Positions 3,499 through 48,709 of a stretch of 64,000 bases of DNA are shown here, piece by piece (the first letter of the stretch is position 1; each line of letters opens with the position of its first letter). The stretch is taken from contig JAIWZP010000021.1 in the NCBI GenBank assembly GCA_025201375.1, positions 310,001 through 374,000 of the forward strand, given 5' to 3'. Source of the DNA: Gongronella butleri. Lineage: Eukaryota; Mucoromycota; Mucoromycetes; Mucorales; Cunninghamellaceae. The notes under the pieces were generated by a model. The model searched no databases. It saw only the letters and a program-made list of their open reading frames with translations, and was not told where the DNA came from. The translations under genes and the position numbers were made by a program.

Positions 3499-4790
3499 AA
3501 AGTTGGTCTTTGTACCGGTAAAACATGTTATTCAGACTTTGGCGGCCTGCAATGCCTCCAGAATTTTTTTTACAACCTGTTTGCCCGTCAATGAAACCTG
3601 CATCACGGCGTAAACTAGAACAGTATCATATACAGTAGTCCAGTATTCAAGACGAACCCGCCCGATTTTTTTGGACTCGAAAATGGCAAAAACCTCCTAT
3701 TTGTGTTATTTTGCATTCATCTGGTCATCTGTATGGTAGACCCCGCTCAAAATAGCAGCATCGAATTCAGCAACAAAAAAGCTTAAACCCCCAAAGCGCT
3801 ACGACCACTTTTGAAAAATTCCGGGGTCACTCAGGGGTCACACATTTCAGTCTCAGAAAATGCCAAATTTGGGGATTTTCGAACTCCGAGTAATCAATGC
3901 ATCCCAAACAGGTAACTCCGACCATTTGCTATTGGCAGACAAACCGGCGAGTCGCCCCAACGTAAGAAAAAAGTCCCAAGAGTGACGCATGAACGACGAT
4001 CGACTGAAAAATTGCCTACTTTGGTGCAATTTTTTTCCACAAATTCAAGTTTTGACACTTCCAAATTGAGGTGCGTAAATTGTATGGTATGGATTTTTTT
4101 GCATTTTTTTATTTTTTATTTTGCACACTTTTGTACGTTGAGTGAGTGGTGGGCTGCTGGCCTGCTGTCGTCTGGTGAAATGACCGATGCAAAAAGTTAA
4201 AACCCAAGCTAGCGCACCACAAGTTATCCCATTAGGTGCTTTGCTCCCCTGTTGTTAGTAAAACTGCAATAAAAATCACGAGTTTATTATTTAGATCATT
4301 GTCGATCAAATCGCGATCAAAGAATTTAATGAAAAAATGAGTTTTCTCTGCGAGTTTTAGTCATCCATCGATGAAACTGGACTCATTCGATAGAGATGCA
4401 AGAGATACTTTCGACACGTTACTGTAAAAGCGCCGTGGTTCGTCTACTCAGTTGCTGAGAACATCGAGGTTGCATGAAAAAATTTAATGTTTGATCGACT
4501 TTCACGAGCGTGCAAAGGTCACGTATCGTCGGGCAAGCAAACATTCTTCTGGAAATGACGTCTAAGCGTGTCTCTTTCAAATGATGCCAGTTTCATCCCG
4601 ATTCACCAAATATTTCGAGAGTCACTGCTGAATTTGTGAAATTATCGATACTGTATTTTGGATTCATCACCTGCACAACGACTCAACTGACCCTGGTTTT
4701 CAACACCACCATGTTGAAAAAAGGCGCGACAAAATACTCACAGTAATGGCGGCCTACTGTAATGATGAAAAAGATTTGGAGGACAATAAT
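3499..4790 (+). repeat. Repeat family A, copy A1 (uninterrupted reference copy)
   Basis: A dispersed non-coding repeat of at least 1.3 kb. Shared landmarks in order: GGCGGCCTGC...CTCCAGAA, CCCGATTTTTTTGGACTCGAAAATG, CGACCACTTTTGAAAAATTC, GGGGTCACTCAGGGGTCAC, CGAACTCCGAGT, CCATTTGCTATTGGCAG, AGTGACGCATGAACG, a T-rich tract with TATTTTGCACAC, TGAAATGACCGATGCAAAAAG, GAGAACATCGAG and CACCTGCACAACGACTCAACTGACC. The same order occurs at 17,990-18,730 and 41,489-47,170. No transposase, reverse transcriptase or terminal repeats could be found, so the class is unknown. This copy supplies the empty sites for both insertions in copy A3. Confidence 0.85.
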
Positions 4791-17989: not shown

Positions 17990-18730
17990 TTGGAAAGCAT
18001 TGCTAAAGTGCCAATTGTTTGCTTATACGGTAGCAGCGCACTCTCATACATTGCACAAAGCAGACATTTGTTCTGGAAAAACGAGTTTTGCAAACTTCGC
18101 CGGCTTGTTGAGCTTCCAGAAATTTTTTTACAGCCTGCTCGCCCGCCCATGAAAAATGCGTCGAGGCATACCGGTAAGCTTCAGCCCAGCGCTCAAGTCG
18201 AAACCGCCCGATTTTTTTTGGACTCGAAAATGCCCAAAACCTCATGTTTGTACTATTTTGCATTCATCTCGCCATCTGTATGGTCGACCCTGCTCAAAAA
18301 TACCTACATCGTTTTCAGCGCAAAATTTGCAACAAAAAAGCTTAAACGACTAAAGCGCTACAACCACTTTTGAAAAATTCAGGGGTCATTCAGGGGTCAC
18401 GCATTTCAAGATCAGAAAATGCCAAATTTGGGAAATTTCGAACTCCGAGTGATCAATGCATCCCAAACAGGTAAATCCGACCATTTGCTATTGGCAGCCA
18501 AAATGGCAGCGGTCGACCCAACTTGAAAAAATGGTCAGAGAGTGACGCTTGAACGCCGATCGACTGAAAAAGTGCCTACTTTAGTTAAAATTATTTTTGC
18601 AAAAATTAAGGTTTGACACATCAAAATGGAAATTTTGGATTGCATGGAAGCAGCAACAAGCAACAAATTTTTTATTTTTTATTTTGCATATTTTTTGTGC
18701 ACTGCACTGGTTGGCCGCAGGCTGAAGAAA
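17990..18730 (+). repeat. Repeat family A, copy A2 (3' truncated)
   Basis: Contains, in the same order as A1, CCCGATTTTTTTTGGACTCG, CAACCACTTTTGAAAAATTC, GGGGTCATTCAGGGGTCAC, CGAACTCCGAGTGATCAATG, CCATTTGCTATTGGCAG and AGTGACGCTTGAACGCCGATC, ending after the TATTTTGCATA tract and a GAAATGATCGATG remnant. The 3' half present in A1 and A3 is missing. Confidence 0.8.
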
Positions 18731-18923
18731 TGATCGATGTAAAATCTTCAACCGCAAGCTAGCATCTTGAGAGTCATCCCCCATTTCTGTCAGGATCCGC
18801 CCCGCGTTCCCGACATGTGCCACGAATTTTTGGATCTTTTTCCTTTTTTTTCTTTTGCGTGCATCGCTACAGTAGTAGCTTCTTCATCCCACTCGCTCCT
18901 CACGCCACCATGATCATCCGCCC

Positions 18924-41606: not shown

Positions 41607-42259
41607 TGTCATGGTCCGGCCCGCTCTCACCCCTGTGTCCATGATGTTGTCTTCGGCGTCGACGCGTCCGACCTTGCTGGGCGGCGACGCTCGGCACGGG
41701 CTCGGCCTGGCGAGCTGCACGACGCTCTTGTCGAGCCGCGTAGCCGCGTATGCGGCGTGGTGCGGGTGGCAGCGAGCTTGTTGGCGTGTAAGACGGGTCA
41801 GTCATGTGGTGAGGGGGAATAACCTCTTTTATTGGTCAACACTAGGGGAGAGAGTTGGGGACGAGCGATGCTGGTGTTGAGAACGGTAAAGAAAAAGAAA
41901 AGAAAAAAAAAGGAAACAGACAGGAAAGGTAAGGAAAAAAAAAGAAGGGAAAAAAAAGGGGAAACAGGGGGGAGAGCCACGGCGTTGGCGACCAACGGAC
42001 GGGGGTCTGCCACCGAGGTCGCACAACAATGCCGAGCGGAATTAGGCGGGATTGGGCGCGTCGCGTCGCGCCCCGACGCGTAAAATAAAGGGAAAAAAAG
42101 GAAAACAGCGATTGCGCACGATCCAGAGGTGCCAGCGAGATGGGGAAAAGAGTGTTGAGAATCTGGCGACCTTGGGCGTGTGTTGGAGGTGGTTTGGTAA
42201 TCGGGCGAGGAGAAAGTGAGAAGAAAAAAAAAAGAATTTGTCCAGATGGGATCATGACA
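41607..42259. mobile_element. Solo LTR of an LTR retrotransposon (Ty3/Gypsy-type ends)
   Basis: 653 bp starting TGTCATGGTCC and ending GGGATCATGACA, so the ends are TG...CA with an imperfect 11-bp inverted repeat. It is flanked by the 5-bp duplication AAACC (41,602-41,606 and 42,260-42,264). In paralogous copy A1 the same place reads GATGAAACCTGCATCACGGC without interruption, so the empty site is seen. There is no internal coding region, which suggests LTR-LTR recombination. The inside is GC-rich at the left and purine-rich (A/G runs) around 41,885-41,960. The 5-bp duplication and TG/CA ends are typical of Ty3/Gypsy or Copia; superfamily is inferred. Confidence 0.85.
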
Positions 42260-43129
42260 AAACCTGCGTCAAGGCAAAAACTATACCAGCCCAGTCTGTT
42301 CAAGCAAGACGGGCCCACGCACCCGCCAAATTTTTTTGGACTCAAAAAGCCAAAAAAAAATCTCCTACTACGGCACAGTATTGTACTATTACAGTATGCA
42401 TTCTTCATCTGTCGTTCTGTCCACTTGAATGAATGGTCGACTCCGCTCAAAAATGGCCGCATCGCATCCAGCGCAATCTACCGGTATGTACTGTACAAGA
42501 TGCTGTACGAGCGAGTACGACCACTTTCGAAAAATTCAGGGGTCACTCAGGGGTCACACATTTCAATCTCAGAAAATGTCAAATTTGGGATTTTTCGAAC
42601 TCCGAGTGATTCATGCATCCCAAACAAGTAACTCTGACGATTTGCTATTGGCAGACAAAAGGGCAAGTCGCCCCAACGTACTGTAAGAATAAAATACTGT
42701 ACCCAAAGAGTGACGCATGAACGGCGATCCACTGAGAAAATTGCTTACTTTTTTGGTCAAGAATCTTTTTCAAAAATTTAAGTTTGACACTTCCAAATTA
42801 AGGTGCATGGATTGCGTGGATTGCATGGCTTTTTTTAATTTTTAATTTTTTATTTTGCACACTTTTGTACGCTGAGTAGTAGACTGCAGCCTTGGTGAAA
42901 TGACCGATGCAAAAAGTTGAAACCCAAGCTAACGCGTTGCAAGTCATCTCATTAGATGCTTTGCCCCCCTATTTGTTAGTAAAACCGGAATAAAAATTTG
43001 GGGTTGACTAGACCGTTGTTGAGAATATCGCGATCAAAGATTTTAGTGAAAAAGGGGATTTTCTCTGCGAGTTTCAGCCATTCATCCATGAAACTTGTCT
43101 CATTCGATAGAGATGAAAGAGATGCCTTT

Positions 43130-43352
43130 GGTGGTGGGTCAAGTCTTTTAGTTCATCTTTTGATTAAATGTCCAAATGATGACCAAGAAAATATCAAAAA
43201 TTAGACATTCCCGGTGGTGCATCGAAGCAAAGACACGGGTCTATCCTTAGCGTACACCCTGGGCAAAGTATATGATAATACAAAAATGGGTAATTAAATT
43301 ACATCAGTTTTATTATAATTGCCATGTATATCTGGTAATAATCGACCTCCTT
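43130..43352 (+). repeat. Left terminal direct repeat of the two-gene element
   Basis: 223 bp, from GGTGGTGGGTCAAG to ATCGACCTCCTT. Identical by eye to 46,626-46,848 and in the same orientation. It ends 9 bp from the transposase stop codon. Confidence 0.95.
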
Positions 43353-43361
43353 GTTTTAAAA

Positions 43362-44786
43362 TTAACCCTCGCTTATGGTAAGCATATATTCTTGTACCAT
43401 ATTCCCATCATCATTAAATTCATCCATTGATAGCCACTTGTTATGTCTGTTGTCATATCCAATCCATTTTACTCTATATTGAATTCCATTTGAGGTATGA
43501 CGATGCTCAATAATCCTCTCGACTTCGTAACTATTATGATCTGGATCTTGCATTATCTCTTCGGTAGTGTTAACAACACCACTCTCTTGGGCAAAAACCT
43601 CTTCAATAGTAAGATTAAAAAGCTGTTGTTGTATCATCTCTATTTTCTCTTTATGTGCACGCCTATCGGAAATACTCAAAATATCGACGACATCATAAAC
43701 AGAACTAGTAGAAGCAGTACCACCATAATAATCAAAGTCTTTATGCATCCAAAATGTATGATGATCTGTATGTTGAAGCGGTCCCATGGCTACAAACTTT
43801 TTCATGTTGCTTAAAACACATGCCAACTTGAATTGTACCGTAAATACAGCATCTTCAGACACGCGGATCACAGATTTACCGTTAAATCGATGAAAAAGAT
43901 GGCCAAGCTCTCCAAAACGAGATTCTATAGACGATCTAAACCCACCAAGCAGCTGGTTATATGCTGTCTCTTCTGCACTAAGATTTACGCCTCTTGATCT
44001 CCTAACAGGAGTCACAAAACTCTCAAGCTGAAGATGGGAGTTCATACATAATATACGATCAATAAATAGAGTATAGCCTCCATCCACGCAAACAGCATCA
44101 AATCGACTTATTTTATCAGATAAATCCATTGACACCAGCATCGATCCATCGTTATTTGTACCACATGGTGCTGCTTTTGAAACAAACAAGATCATGCTAT
44201 TGGTATCCATGCCTACCTGGGTGCGAAAGCCAGACTTTTTCAATTTGTATGAATAATAATCAGCTCTTGACGTTGCATTTATGTATGTTGCTCGTGAGTC
44301 ATGACCATCAATCATCATGGTAACGTGCCTAAACTCGTTAGGATTCATCTCTCTTGCACACATTACCCTTATTTTTACATTTGAAAACATCTTAGCTAGG
44401 CATTCATCTAATTTCTTATCTAAAAAGTCTAATTGCTTTGCATAAAACACCCGGTAAATGGCGTTGAAGCTGCTTTTTGGGATGAATTGCCCCATTTGAC
44501 TCATGGATGCACCGGTCAATAGATGATACAAAATCAACAGGCCTTTCTCCACTCCACGATATGGTCCAGGATAGTCTTTATTGCTAAATAAAACAGACAA
44601 AAAGAAAAATACGGGTATATAACCTAAGTGCTCAAACACATAGTTTTTTACAATCTCTATACCAACGATGCTCTTAATTTCTGATCGATGATGCTTCTCT
44701 CTTTCAACAACAGGCCAGTCATCATGAAAAAATGTCCAATAATTTCTAACTAAATACTGAAATAATTGTCTTAGATCTTCGTTCAT
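43362..44786 (-). CDS. DDE transposase (DDE_Tnp_4-like) with C-terminal chromodomain
   Basis: Intronless, 474 residues, ATG 44786. Residues ~80-135 (RGVEKGLLILYHLLTGASMSQMGQF) look like the helix-turn-helix seen before IS5/Harbinger-type catalytic domains. The catalytic triad is placed at Asp160 (VTMMIDGHDS), Asp235 (AVCVDGGYT) and Glu288 (RSSIESRFGELGHLF), the spacing and context of the DDE_Tnp_4 superfamily. Residues 419-470 form a chromodomain: SYEVERIIEHR, YRVKWIGYDNRHNKWL, with the methyl-lysine cage residues Tyr420, Trp441 and Tyr444 present. By family it cuts and joins transposon ends; the chromodomain may steer insertion to methylated histone H3. Codon use is AT-rich, unlike neighbouring host genes. 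The frame is intact, so it may be active. Confidence 0.88.
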   Translation of the reverse strand: MNEDLRQLFQYLVRNYWTFFHDDWPVVEREKHHRSEIKSIVGIEIVKNYVFEHLGYIPVFFFLSVLFSNKDYPGPYRGVEKGLLILYHLLTGASMSQMGQFIPKSSFNAIYRVFYAKQLDFLDKKLDECLAKMFSNVKIRVMCAREMNPNEFRHVTMMIDGHDSRATYINATSRADYYSYKLKKSGFRTQVGMDTNSMILFVSKAAPCGTNNDGSMLVSMDLSDKISRFDAVCVDGGYTLFIDRILCMNSHLQLESFVTPVRRSRGVNLSAEETAYNQLLGGFRSSIESRFGELGHLFHRFNGKSVIRVSEDAVFTVQFKLACVLSNMKKFVAMGPLQHTDHHTFWMHKDFDYYGGTASTSSVYDVVDILSISDRRAHKEKIEMIQQQLFNLTIEEVFAQESGVVNTTEEIMQDPDHNSYEVERIIEHRHTSNGIQYRVKWIGYDNRHNKWLSMDEFNDDGNMVQEYMLTISEG

Positions 44787-45026
44787 TTTTGCCTTTGCTC
44801 CTATAAATATGTATTCAAATAAAAAAGGTCATGTGACACACGTCACTATGTGAAGAGCTATTTATTATGAAACTCCGCACTCCGGCAGAAAGCCCATAAT
44901 GACCTCAACCCTTCTCGTTAACACTTTTTTCAACGAACATGCTCAATACCGTACATCAATGATGTTTATGGAATAAATTATGTTAAAAATTATGATCAAC
45001 TTTATGGCTGGACGGACCATACTAGC
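44787..45026. promoter_or_regulatory. Central divergent promoter region of the two-gene element
   Basis: 240 bp between the divergent ATGs. It contains ATAAATATG near the transposase start, a GTGAC-ACAC-GTCAC inverted repeat at 44,833-44,846, and a CTATTTATTATG TATA-like stretch. The open frame of the plus gene continues upstream for about 35 codons without an ATG, so its true start may lie in this region. Confidence 0.5.
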
Positions 45027-46571
45027 ATGTTTGTCGATAGCATCATGCTCTGGTGTGCATTCGATATGGAACAAGATGATGCTTCAAAAATGATCAAATC
45101 TTTTCTGGGTATCATCAGCTCCATGTTTGTCCGTCATTATGAAAAGCACCAATTTTACATAAAATATATAAGAAAGGGTGTCTGGAATAGTTTTGACAAA
45201 GAGTCGGAGGAAATGGAGATCCAGGAGACATTTAGCAAAATGGGTTATATTGGGATCAACGCGACTTTTCATGACATTGGCGTTTCAGGCGTTTTCCATT
45301 CTTTGAGACGTGTACTTGCTGAATTGCGCAAAAACAATATTATACTTCGAAGCATTGATGTGACTGTTGACTGCGGCTATATTTCAACTCGCATGATCAT
45401 TGAGAAATACGTCCTGAGTCACAAAATTGCAACCAAAGGCGATATTGTAAATGATCGTGGGCGCGTAGGTGACAATTGCATTTCGTTTCTTGGAAAATCA
45501 GCCCTTTTAAATAACGCAAATACACGCACTAAAATTTACAATAAGTTTATCCAGGCTTTGGAAAGCTCGCAAGTACTTGTCCCGCTTGGATCACGCCTCA
45601 GTCACCTGGTCGCAGATCGTGACTCGTTGTATATGGAAAAATTGAAACGCTTTCTAAACACTGGTTATACTCGTATTGAGTTATCTATTTATGGTAGTAC
45701 GCTCTTTAGTCCTACGTCATATGAGCGCGCAATGGATGACCTACTTGACAAGCTAGCCGGCTGCCCAACATTTAATGTGCCTTTGTGGGAGCAATGGCAT
45801 ATGATTGTAGATAAACTAACACAGGTTGCTGCAGTGTATGTGGAAAACACAAATACGTTTGCATACTGTCATTGGTGGAACTCTCTTACAAAGAAAAAGC
45901 AAGGCATTTGTAAAGATAAAATCAAGAGAGACGATCTTAAGTGCTTCTTAACTAACTTTAGCTTTAATGATAGAGTGATTCACTGTTTTTTTATCAAGCA
46001 GATTGAAAACAGCTCAGCATATGAAATTATTAATCATAAGCGTTATATGAGAGCTGATGGTTGCACAGCCATGACGTTGACACCAGGTTTGTCAAATTCA
46101 CTCTTTCCTTCTCGTGGTCGGCTTCAAATAAAAGATATCATGTTTGCAGATGTTGGACTTGATATCTATAAGAACATACATATCGAATGGCCTCTCAATC
46201 GCTTAGAAAATACGGTCGATCGAACTGTGACCAGTTTTGTGCAAAGATTAGACGACGACGCATTCAACTTGTCGTCAATCCGAGAAGCCATGCCATCTGC
46301 TTTGCAGGTGATTAACAGTCCTCAAGTATCTCAATATACATCTGACCGCAAGTGCCTTCTAGCCAATGTCTCATACAACGTAATAAAGTATGGATATGCC
46401 AGTTTCAGGGGCAAAATGTGCCTTCATTTGGTGCTAGCGGATGGTTTGATGGTGCGCTGCGGGAATAAAATGCAAGACGTTATTGAACCAACAATTGGGG
46501 AAGGTGTGGTGTTTAGTTTCTTTGTCGATAACGTCACTTACAGAGACGTCACATGCAGGATTGTCATCTAA
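45027..46571 (+). CDS. Rep_trans-like (replication initiation factor) protein of the two-gene element
   Basis: Intronless, 514 residues from ATG 45027. Three spaced motifs match rolling-circle plasmid initiators of the Rep_trans (RepC/RepD) family: ILRSIDVTVDCG (~107-117, metal-site acidic strand), CISFLGKSALLN...TRTKIYNKF (~151-174), in which Tyr171 sits where the nicking tyrosine of IYNK lies in those proteins, and GYTRIELSIYG (~213-223). The remaining ~290 residues are unrecognised; they include CHWWNSLTKKKQG and a C-terminal beta-rich part. If the match holds, it nicks and becomes covalently linked to element DNA. The open frame extends ~35 codons 5' of the ATG (GINYVKNYDQLYGW), and an overlapping frame starts at an ATG near 44,897, so a frameshift or hidden intron at the 5' end is possible. 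Confidence 0.6.
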   Translation: MFVDSIMLWCAFDMEQDDASKMIKSFLGIISSMFVRHYEKHQFYIKYIRKGVWNSFDKESEEMEIQETFSKMGYIGINATFHDIGVSGVFHSLRRVLAELRKNNIILRSIDVTVDCGYISTRMIIEKYVLSHKIATKGDIVNDRGRVGDNCISFLGKSALLNNANTRTKIYNKFIQALESSQVLVPLGSRLSHLVADRDSLYMEKLKRFLNTGYTRIELSIYGSTLFSPTSYERAMDDLLDKLAGCPTFNVPLWEQWHMIVDKLTQVAAVYVENTNTFAYCHWWNSLTKKKQGICKDKIKRDDLKCFLTNFSFNDRVIHCFFIKQIENSSAYEIINHKRYMRADGCTAMTLTPGLSNSLFPSRGRLQIKDIMFADVGLDIYKNIHIEWPLNRLENTVDRTVTSFVQRLDDDAFNLSSIREAMPSALQVINSPQVSQYTSDRKCLLANVSYNVIKYGYASFRGKMCLHLVLADGLMVRCGNKMQDVIEPTIGEGVVFSFFVDNVTYRDVTCRIVI

Positions 46572-46625
46572 ACAATATATTATATCGGCGTCATATCGTA
46601 CTGTTTTTAAAATTTATTTACTGTA

Positions 46626-46848
46626 GGTGGTGGGTCAAGTCTTTTAGTTCATCTTTTGATTAAATGTCCAAATGATGACCAAGAAAATATCAAAAATTAG
46701 ACATTCCCGGTGGTGCATCGAAGCAAAGACACGGGTCTATCCTTAGCGTACACCCTGGGCAAAGTATATGATAATACAAAAATGGGTAATTAAATTACAT
46801 CAGTTTTATTATAATTGCCATGTATATCTGGTAATAATCGACCTCCTT
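46626..46848 (+). repeat. Right terminal direct repeat of the two-gene element
   Basis: Identical to 43,130-43,352. It starts 54 bp after the Rep-like stop codon. The repeat period is 3,496 bp. Confidence 0.95.
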
Positions 46849-47170
46849 TGGCACGTTAAAAGTACCGCGTGTTGTTTAATCCGTTGCCGAGAACATCGAG
46901 CTTGAAAATTTTTGTAATGTTTGAACGGCATCACAAGCATACAAAGGTCACGCATCGGGCAAACAAACATTCCAATAATGGCGTCCAAACGTATATCTTT
47001 CGACTGATGCCAGCTTCATCCCGATCCACAAAAAAATTCGAAAGCCACTGCTGAATTTGTGAAAATATCGATTTTTTTGGATTCACCTGCACAACGACTC
47101 AACTGACCTCTGATTTTCAATGCCATTTTGAAAAAAGACGCGACGAAATACAGTAGCCTAATGAAACAGT

Positions 47171-48709
47171 TTTGGAGGCTATCCAATAATGGCCTGCGGG
47201 TGTTTAATTCTGGATTTGTAAAAAATGTCGAGATTTCGAATTTACTGTATCTGCGCAGCGACTCAGTTGATGACCTCTGGTTATCAACGTTTTGTTGCAA
47301 CAGGGCGCGGCAAATAGTCAGAGGACAAGGATTGGGAGGTAATCGAACGTTGATTTATTTTGGTCATCATTGAATTTGTGACAATTCATGTAAACAGTGC
47401 TTTTCTCCTCGAAAACGGCCTGGTAGGCCTTTGAGTTTTTTACTTTTCCCTTTAAAGAGAGTCGCTGAAATAGCAAAGTGGTGATAAAGTTTGGTGGCAG
47501 TCGAATCATGATTTTGCCTCGAAATGATTTTTTTAAGATCTAATTTTGAGCAATGTCGGATTTCTCGCAGAGCCGGTTGATTGACCTTCTGGTTTTTATT
47601 TTTTTTTTCTACAAAGAGAGGGGCTAAATCCACCACATGGGAAAGTTTCCTGGCGCTGCAAGCGGTCCTTGCTTGATAATGGATTTTTTTTTCAAATTTG
47701 AGAAAAAAAAAGATGGGGCAAGCCAAAATGCATCTGGAGGGACACCCGATTTTTGAATCCGTTTGGCAACTTACATATCAGCCACCAGCGCTTTGGGAGT
47801 CATGTTTTTTGATGCATTGACCCCCTCTCTCTAAGCAAATATGCAGTAAAAATCGAGGAATGACTTGACGGAACTCGAGGAAATGGCGATTAATGTTAAT
47901 TTTTAAAAACGTGCATTTCTCCATTAGTTTTGGTCACAAAGTGGTGAAACTGGAATCATCCCACAGAGTATTGAATCCAGCTTCTGTTGTCACTGCCGCG
48001 TGCCGTGAGTTTTTTTGTCCACTGCCAAGCAAATCGCGTCCGAAATATTTACGTGATAGACGGCAGCGTACAAAAGTCGTCCATCGAGATGCCCAGGCAG
48101 AGACCAAATGACGTCAAAACGGGCAGCTTTCCGTAGTGCAAAGTTCAGCCACATCGAATTCAATTTCGGTGAACCACAACCAAATCGAGCAAAATCGGTT
48201 AAAATTTGCATTTGCTAGACAACGGCCTTGTCGACCAACGATTTTCATGGTGTTTCTGAGAACTAGAGGGCTGAAATGCATAACCAAAAGCCAGGTCCCA
48301 TGGTGGTGCGAGCATTATTTCAAGTGGCGAAATGGCACCTTTTTTTTTTTTTTTTTTTGAAACTGGGAGGTGGGAGCCGCTGGCCAAAAATTTGCCGAGT
48401 TGAAAAAAAGCTCGTTGTCGGATGCATCTTGCATTGGTCAAGCTTAATGCTGGCGATTTGCGTACACCGTGCTCCAAATGAGTGACCATTTTGGAGGCGG
48501 ATGCGCGCTAAGCAGCAGCGCAAGGGTTTCTAAAGGTCGCCAAAATCCATCCCGGTGCGCGTCAAACTCAAAAAAAGTCGCCATCTGGGTCCTTTCAATT
48601 CAATTTAGAACATTTGCAACAAAATCGAATTCATCTGCAAGGATTTTTATTATTAAAACTCCGATTTCGGAGGGCCTTGAGTAACCACTCATCTTCATTG
48701 ACATCTGAG
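47171..48709. other. Intergenic, repeat-like, no gene
   Basis: Continues without a supportable ORF. It shares the style of the A and B repeats (many CGA and AAATCG words, short T-runs) but no second copy was found in the window. Confidence 0.4.

Follow-up and report, generated by a model that had tools for sequence, protein, structure and literature searches.

The 64,000-nucleotide stretch of Gongronella butleri DNA analyzed here (the window; positions 310,001 to 374,000 of contig JAIWZP010000021.1, designated C25) carries a transposon in which a PIF/Harbinger-type DDE-chromodomain transposase and a second protein lie between two identical or nearly identical terminal direct repeats (TDRs). 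Whole elements and solo TDRs alike insert with 3-bp target duplications at GG...CC ends, the TDR design is common to several diverged lineages, and paired TDRs evolve in concert. The explanation we favor, with moderate confidence, is that of a composite-like DNA transposon whose second gene (gene 2) would encode a tyrosine nickase driving a one-TDR intermediate. Genome-wide counts refer to the 33.0-Mb, 110-contig assembly to which the window belongs.

Results

The whole element is bounded by TTT duplications (Table 1). A first-pass annotation, made from the letters of the window, had reported identical 223-bp direct repeats, and the repeats at 43130–43352 and 46626–46848 are indeed 100% identical; the true TDR is, however, 221 bp long (GGTGG...CCTCC), the extra TT arising from coincidence of the inner TTG with the outer TTT duplication. 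The same annotation described the ends as direct, not inverted. Direct they are, but every TDR is itself bounded by short, imperfectly inverted sequences close to GGAGGTCGGTCA, while the TDR bodies differ between families. Only two open reading frames (ORFs) of at least 200 amino acids (aa) are found in the element, and these are divergent and intronless as annotated; the claim that both are intact holds for the transposase but not for gene 2, the frame of which is broken between 44899 and 45027, leaving 514 aa compared to the 555–556 aa, from a start equivalent to 44899, seen in three of the five copies of this family (family A). The annotated empty site in a paralogous repeat is real, though diverged: the element flanks match 3800–4406 (80%) and 4425–4737 (78%), and when joined without the element they align to the paralog gap-free across the junction, with TTC in the paralog at the position of TTT in the window. 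Diverged pieces of this host repeat, 75–80% identical, lie at 3800–4737, 18359–18778 and 42516–47150.

Table 1. Features of the element and of its empty site (window positions)
Feature	Position	Strand	Basis or remark
Left target-site duplication copy, 3 bp, TTT	43127..43129	no strand	flanks compared with empty site
Left TDR, 221 bp	43130..43350	+	starts GGTGGTGGGTCA, ends GACCTCC
Transposase ORF, 474 aa	43362..44786	-	DDE_Tnp_4 plus C-terminal chromodomain
Between the readable ORFs: broken 5' part of gene 2	44787..45026	no strand	gene 2 of three further copies starts at the equivalent of 44899
Gene 2 readable ORF, 514 aa, candidate Rep_trans-like nicking enzyme	45027..46571	+	conserved residues, copy comparison
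Right TDR, 221 bp, identical to left TDR	46626..46846	+	sequence comparison
Right target-site duplication copy, 3 bp, TTT	46847..46849	no strand	flanks compared with empty site
Diverged paralogous host repeat without element (empty site)	3800..4737	+	junction just after ~4412

The genome contains 17 family-A TDRs: five pairs (~3.5 kb apart) and seven solos. The five elements are 99.57–99.92% identical over aligned bases and the family was therefore active recently, which bears out the annotated recent insertion of a real mobile element. Of the five, only C17 has both ORFs at full length. In the window copy the transposase is intact and gene 2 is disrupted close to its start; the transposase ORFs are shortened in the C50 and C61 elements, and gene 2 is broken in the C100 element. 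One solo family-A TDR (L019, C29:377565-378048) lies next to a complete family-C element, ~30 bp past its right TDR.

Target duplications were tallied for 36 insertions of families A–D, comprising 11 two-TDR elements and 25 solo TDRs, with distant TDR matches (70–79%) kept outside the tally. Perfect 3-bp duplications flank 10 of the 11 elements and 23 of the 25 solos (33/36 overall), the chance of a flank match being 0.018 per site. The imperfect ones are L011 (ATT/AAT), L020 (CTG/CTC) and L078 (TAT/CAT). Solos L068 and L069 on C102 share flanks and represent one duplicated insertion, both counted among the 25; they lie 8.4 kb apart in opposite orientation, as an inverted duplication. Outside the tally, flanks read TAG/TAG for a C20 element and TTA/TTA for a C34 locus, and one C54 unit is without duplication (CTT/TAG). 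Family A shows three kinds of perfect duplication at four of its five sites (TTT twice, TTG and TAA). Neither the TWA rule of the PIF/Harbinger group proper (TAA or TTA in 4 of the 33 perfect duplications) nor the CWG rule of NuwaI (2 of 33, L016 CTG and L017 CAG) applies. The single two-TDR element in the tally with unequal flanks, L011 (C50:233632-237345), also has TDRs that differ by 1 base, as would be expected from recombination between two insertions. Within each of families A, B and C, TDR and internal region always meet at the same junction, except in C61, which has 3 extra bases. A search for a conserved nick site or hairpin across nine TDRs brought out nothing beyond the inverted ends and a GAA around position 95.

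Both proteins match further diverged lineages elsewhere in the genome. Co-occurrence of genes and repeats, which the first-pass annotation had set as the test of its proposal, is found: transposase and gene 2 adjoin at 14 places (C25, C17, C61, C50, C100 (×2), C45, C59, C78, C105, C52, C29, C2 and C20), divergent in some and in tandem in others, and diverged lineages likewise have TDR pairs. Self-comparison of the other loci revealed an own TDR pair at C100b, C105, C2, C29, C45, C52, C59 and a degenerate C34 locus, and none at C18 (around its transposase), two C20 pieces, C54, C69 and two C78 loci. On C20 both TDRs are present at a distance of ~11 kb; the element between them is split by ~7.6 kb of other sequence (C20:409849-417454), including a chromodomain-like match at 410754-410882. 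The right TDR of C105 is truncated. From this self-comparison, families A–D are complete and C105, one end of which is damaged, represents a fifth lineage. Two gene-2 copies, L059 (C78:361885-363645) and L060 (C69:152266-153975), stand by a TDR-like unit with no adjoining transposase match. Families A and B share 87% aa identity in the transposase and 64–67% in gene 2, and for A and C these values are 70% and 66–67%. In C29 and C52 the transposase has a flipped orientation with respect to gene 2. Transposase and gene-2 halves have probably been reshuffled by modular exchange. Nonsynonymous divergence (dN) is well below synonymous divergence (dS) in those pairs where dS is measurable, dS being undefined for 7/10 gene-2 and 3/10 transposase pairs.

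The TDRs provide the strongest mechanistic clue, whatever gene 2 is. Within an element, left and right TDR differ at no more than 1 base, plus a 3-base gap in C29, and 7 of 11 pairs are identical. Between families A, B, C and D, TDRs are 58–68% alike, with only the A–B comparison beating all its 30 shuffles, and the internal regions of A and B are ~77% identical over 2.9 kb. Closer TDRs are found among relatives of B (70–79%), and C105-like units (E, F, H) are also nearer each other. Both TDRs of C29 have a substitution absent from all other family-C copies, and both TDRs of C100b have a 3-bp insertion absent from the other close family-B copies, the diverged solo L067 having different letters at these columns. 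Because TDRs merely carried through cut-and-paste should have drifted like the families, each pair must stem from one template since the family split. Renewal of the pair would then occur either through recombination or by copying that passes via a single-TDR form.

The minus-strand protein is, as annotated, a DDE-chromodomain transposase. Residues 172–327 match DDE_Tnp_4 (Pfam; E 1e-09, 38.6 bits against a cutoff of 24.8) and residues 420–467 match Chromo (Pfam; E 1.4e-09), next to weak further Pfam matches to DDE_Tnp_1 and Ribosomal_L2_N. D160, D235 and E288, invariant in 15 aligned transposase sequences, read as the putative catalytic triad, and by its DDE_Tnp_4-type domain the protein would belong to the PHIS (PIF/Harbinger) superfamily. 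Searches yielded 166 relatives, 120 of which are listed; organism names among the matches listed are Cunninghamella, Rhizomucor, Lobosporangium, Dissophora, Entomortierella, Apophysomyces, Mortierella and Lichtheimia, genera that we take to be all Mucoromycota. One Cunninghamella relative (P0050) is annotated with PF00077, which we take to be the retroviral-type aspartyl protease, in addition to Chromo and DDE_Tnp_4, and is perhaps a fused gene model.

Gene 2, annotated as Rep_trans-like, retains most of the published active-site residues. In window numbering these are D4, D111xxxD115, K169-I-Y171-N-K173-F-I-Q176 and R216-I-E218, and the putative catalytic residues are invariant across gene-2 relatives down to ~30% identity (23-row alignment). 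Set against the Rep_trans pattern D / RxDxAxD / TxYxG / RxYxKxxE(Q) / RxE, the elements D, DxxxD, KxYxKxxQ and RxE are conserved and TxYxG is partial; two arginines are replaced, the first of RxDxAxD by S and the first of RxYxK by K. The best VIA-align neighbor is a Rep_trans initiator, and in VIA-align the N-terminal half resembles RepSTK1. Family membership, in contrast, did not hold up in profile tests: neither gene 2 nor 22 relatives gave a hidden Markov model (HMM) match to Rep_trans (PF02486, Pfam), and profile–profile comparison with four plasmid Rep_trans proteins, on a small and narrow alignment, was not significant. Because these tests are negative, we call the protein Rep_trans-like and not a member of that family, a designation that the conserved residues support. 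A genome search with PF02486 returned 0 matches, the control matching only B. subtilis among 14 genomes.

Other assignments were considered as well. Pfam showed no Myb/SANT domain in gene 2 and no His-Me finger nuclease in gene 2 or 22 relatives, and an HUH/Replitron enzyme was rejected, inspection of the 23-row alignment by eye revealing no conserved H-x-H. Weak Pfam matches in single relatives (best RasGEF, E 0.011) and weak NCBIfam matches in relative P0001 (best E 0.0085) were judged to be chance. Outside the genome, no gene-2 relatives were found in plasmids (window protein as query) or phages (P0021 as query); IMG/VR gave 401 pattern stretches and GTDB genomes 47, with 0 confirmed as relatives in either. 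The 23-row profile recovered the same 23 proteins and none further, sequence searches of the PDB gave nothing relevant, and PHROGs gave weak scattered matches only.

Discussion

In the mechanism we propose, the transposase would act on the GG...CC ends, normally the outermost pair, and a single TDR may move alone or stay behind after TDR–TDR recombination. Gene 2 would be a tyrosine nickase working like Rep_trans rolling-circle initiators and relaxases: by nicking inside a TDR it could drive a one-TDR intermediate, which might take the form of a circle, of a displaced strand or of repair from one TDR to the other and would serve to rebuild the two-TDR form with identical TDRs. The chromodomain may steer insertion toward marked chromatin. 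A more specific version, in which the nickase copies the element out from TDR to TDR in rolling-circle fashion, the Harbinger-type transposase integrates the product and the TDRs are regenerated from one template each cycle, we regard as possible but rather doubtful.

The same composite transposon could also operate with a gene 2 that is a noncatalytic DNA-binding helper replacing the Myb/SANT protein of PIF/Harbinger elements, host homologous recombination alone keeping the TDRs identical and producing the solos. Several observations favor this explanation and weigh against a nickase: the negative Rep_trans HMM and profile–profile tests, the excess of solo TDRs over two-TDR elements (25 vs 11), as recombination would give, and the C50 element, the unequal flanks (ATT/AAT) and TDRs (1 base) of which look like the outcome of ectopic recombination. 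Plain DNA binding, however, needs no catalytic residues, whereas the would-be catalytic residues are invariant to ~30% identity, and KolobokP independently combines direct repeats with a nuclease (PMC9587614). On balance, we consider the helper alternative unlikely, though it deserves serious attention.

The solo TDRs do resemble miniature inverted-repeat transposable elements of 221–250 bp with their own inverted ends and 3-bp duplications, and an ordinary PIF/Harbinger element might have been trapped by chance between two such short nonautonomous elements. Yet several lineages have the same arrangement with TDR sequences that are unrelated, the TDR-internal junctions do not vary within families A, B and C save for the 3 extra bases in C61, no inverted repeat of at least 20 bp occurs in window positions 42000–48000, and the inverted-end pattern was not found within the internal regions of B, C and D elements; we reject a chance composite as very improbable. 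Least probable of all, and likewise rejected, is a retro-element or assembly artifact. The element does recall long terminal repeat (LTR) elements in its direct terminal repeats, its solo repeats and its chromodomain, but neither of the two ORFs of at least 200 aa matches reverse transcriptase (Pfam), the ends are GG...CC, and five family-A copies occupy five sites, four with perfect duplications.

The first-pass annotation stated that none of the element classes it named combines a DDE transposase, a Rep_trans-like protein and terminal direct repeats, thereby overlooking KolobokP, the closest known design: an animal DDE transposon that also encodes a nuclease and is bounded by long terminal direct repeats, each of them carrying inverted ends of its own (Kojima & Bao 2022, PMC9587614). 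According to its authors, such repeats set KolobokP apart from any other DNA transposon, and they discuss a circular one-repeat intermediate and nuclease-induced crossover. Common to both systems are a DDE transposase and a nuclease or nuclease-like gene between two long terminal direct repeats, short inverted ends on each repeat, and solo repeats with target duplications. KolobokP differs in having a Kolobok transposase (DDE_Tnp_4 here, with no direct comparison to a Kolobok sequence), a His-Me finger homing nuclease instead of a Rep_trans-like protein, repeats of ~450 or 660 bp (221–250 bp here), duplications of 3–5 bp (3 bp here), common multimers (none seen here) and animal hosts (a fungus here); the part available mentions no chromodomain, which is present here (PMC9587614). 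Because transposase type and partner both differ, the TDR design appears to have arisen separately from KolobokP.

With PIF/Harbinger and other PHIS elements, the element shares a DDE_Tnp_4-type transposase, two ORFs, 3-bp duplications and short inverted ends beginning with G, and it differs in its direct-repeat ends, its chromodomain, the lack of a detected Myb/SANT partner and of a TWA or CWG target rule (PMC4482050). With Rep_trans initiators and MOBT relaxases (RepD, RepSTK1, RelSt3), gene 2 shares the order and chemistry of most active-site residues, which lie on predicted strands in the same order, but there is no HMM-level similarity, two Arg are replaced, motif II is partial, the C-terminal half (~residue 250 on) has no counterpart, and the host is eukaryotic (PMC4797284, PMC6499999). 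Replitrons, too, are eukaryotic transposons that have terminal direct repeats and encode a nuclease resembling replication initiators; this, however, is an HUH enzyme, their repeats measure 5–11 bp, and the accessible text mentions no DDE transposase (PMC10741241). Literature searches, which covered few subscription papers, returned among the matches listed no Harbinger-type element with direct terminal repeats, no Rep_trans-type enzyme in a eukaryotic transposon and no earlier description of a DDE transposase paired with a Rep_trans-like protein.

Among the matches listed, animal KolobokP is the only other DDE transposon with long terminal direct repeats. A second case, found in a fungus and with a transposase of another superfamily, also has a nuclease-like partner; this suggests a link between the TDR design and a helper that cuts DNA, an association that offers a testable rule for how two direct repeats are kept identical. 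If gene 2 does nick, a Rep_trans-type enzyme would be active in a eukaryotic transposon, and copy-out by such a nickase followed by DDE-mediated integration, if true, would constitute a DNA-only counterpart of LTR regeneration.
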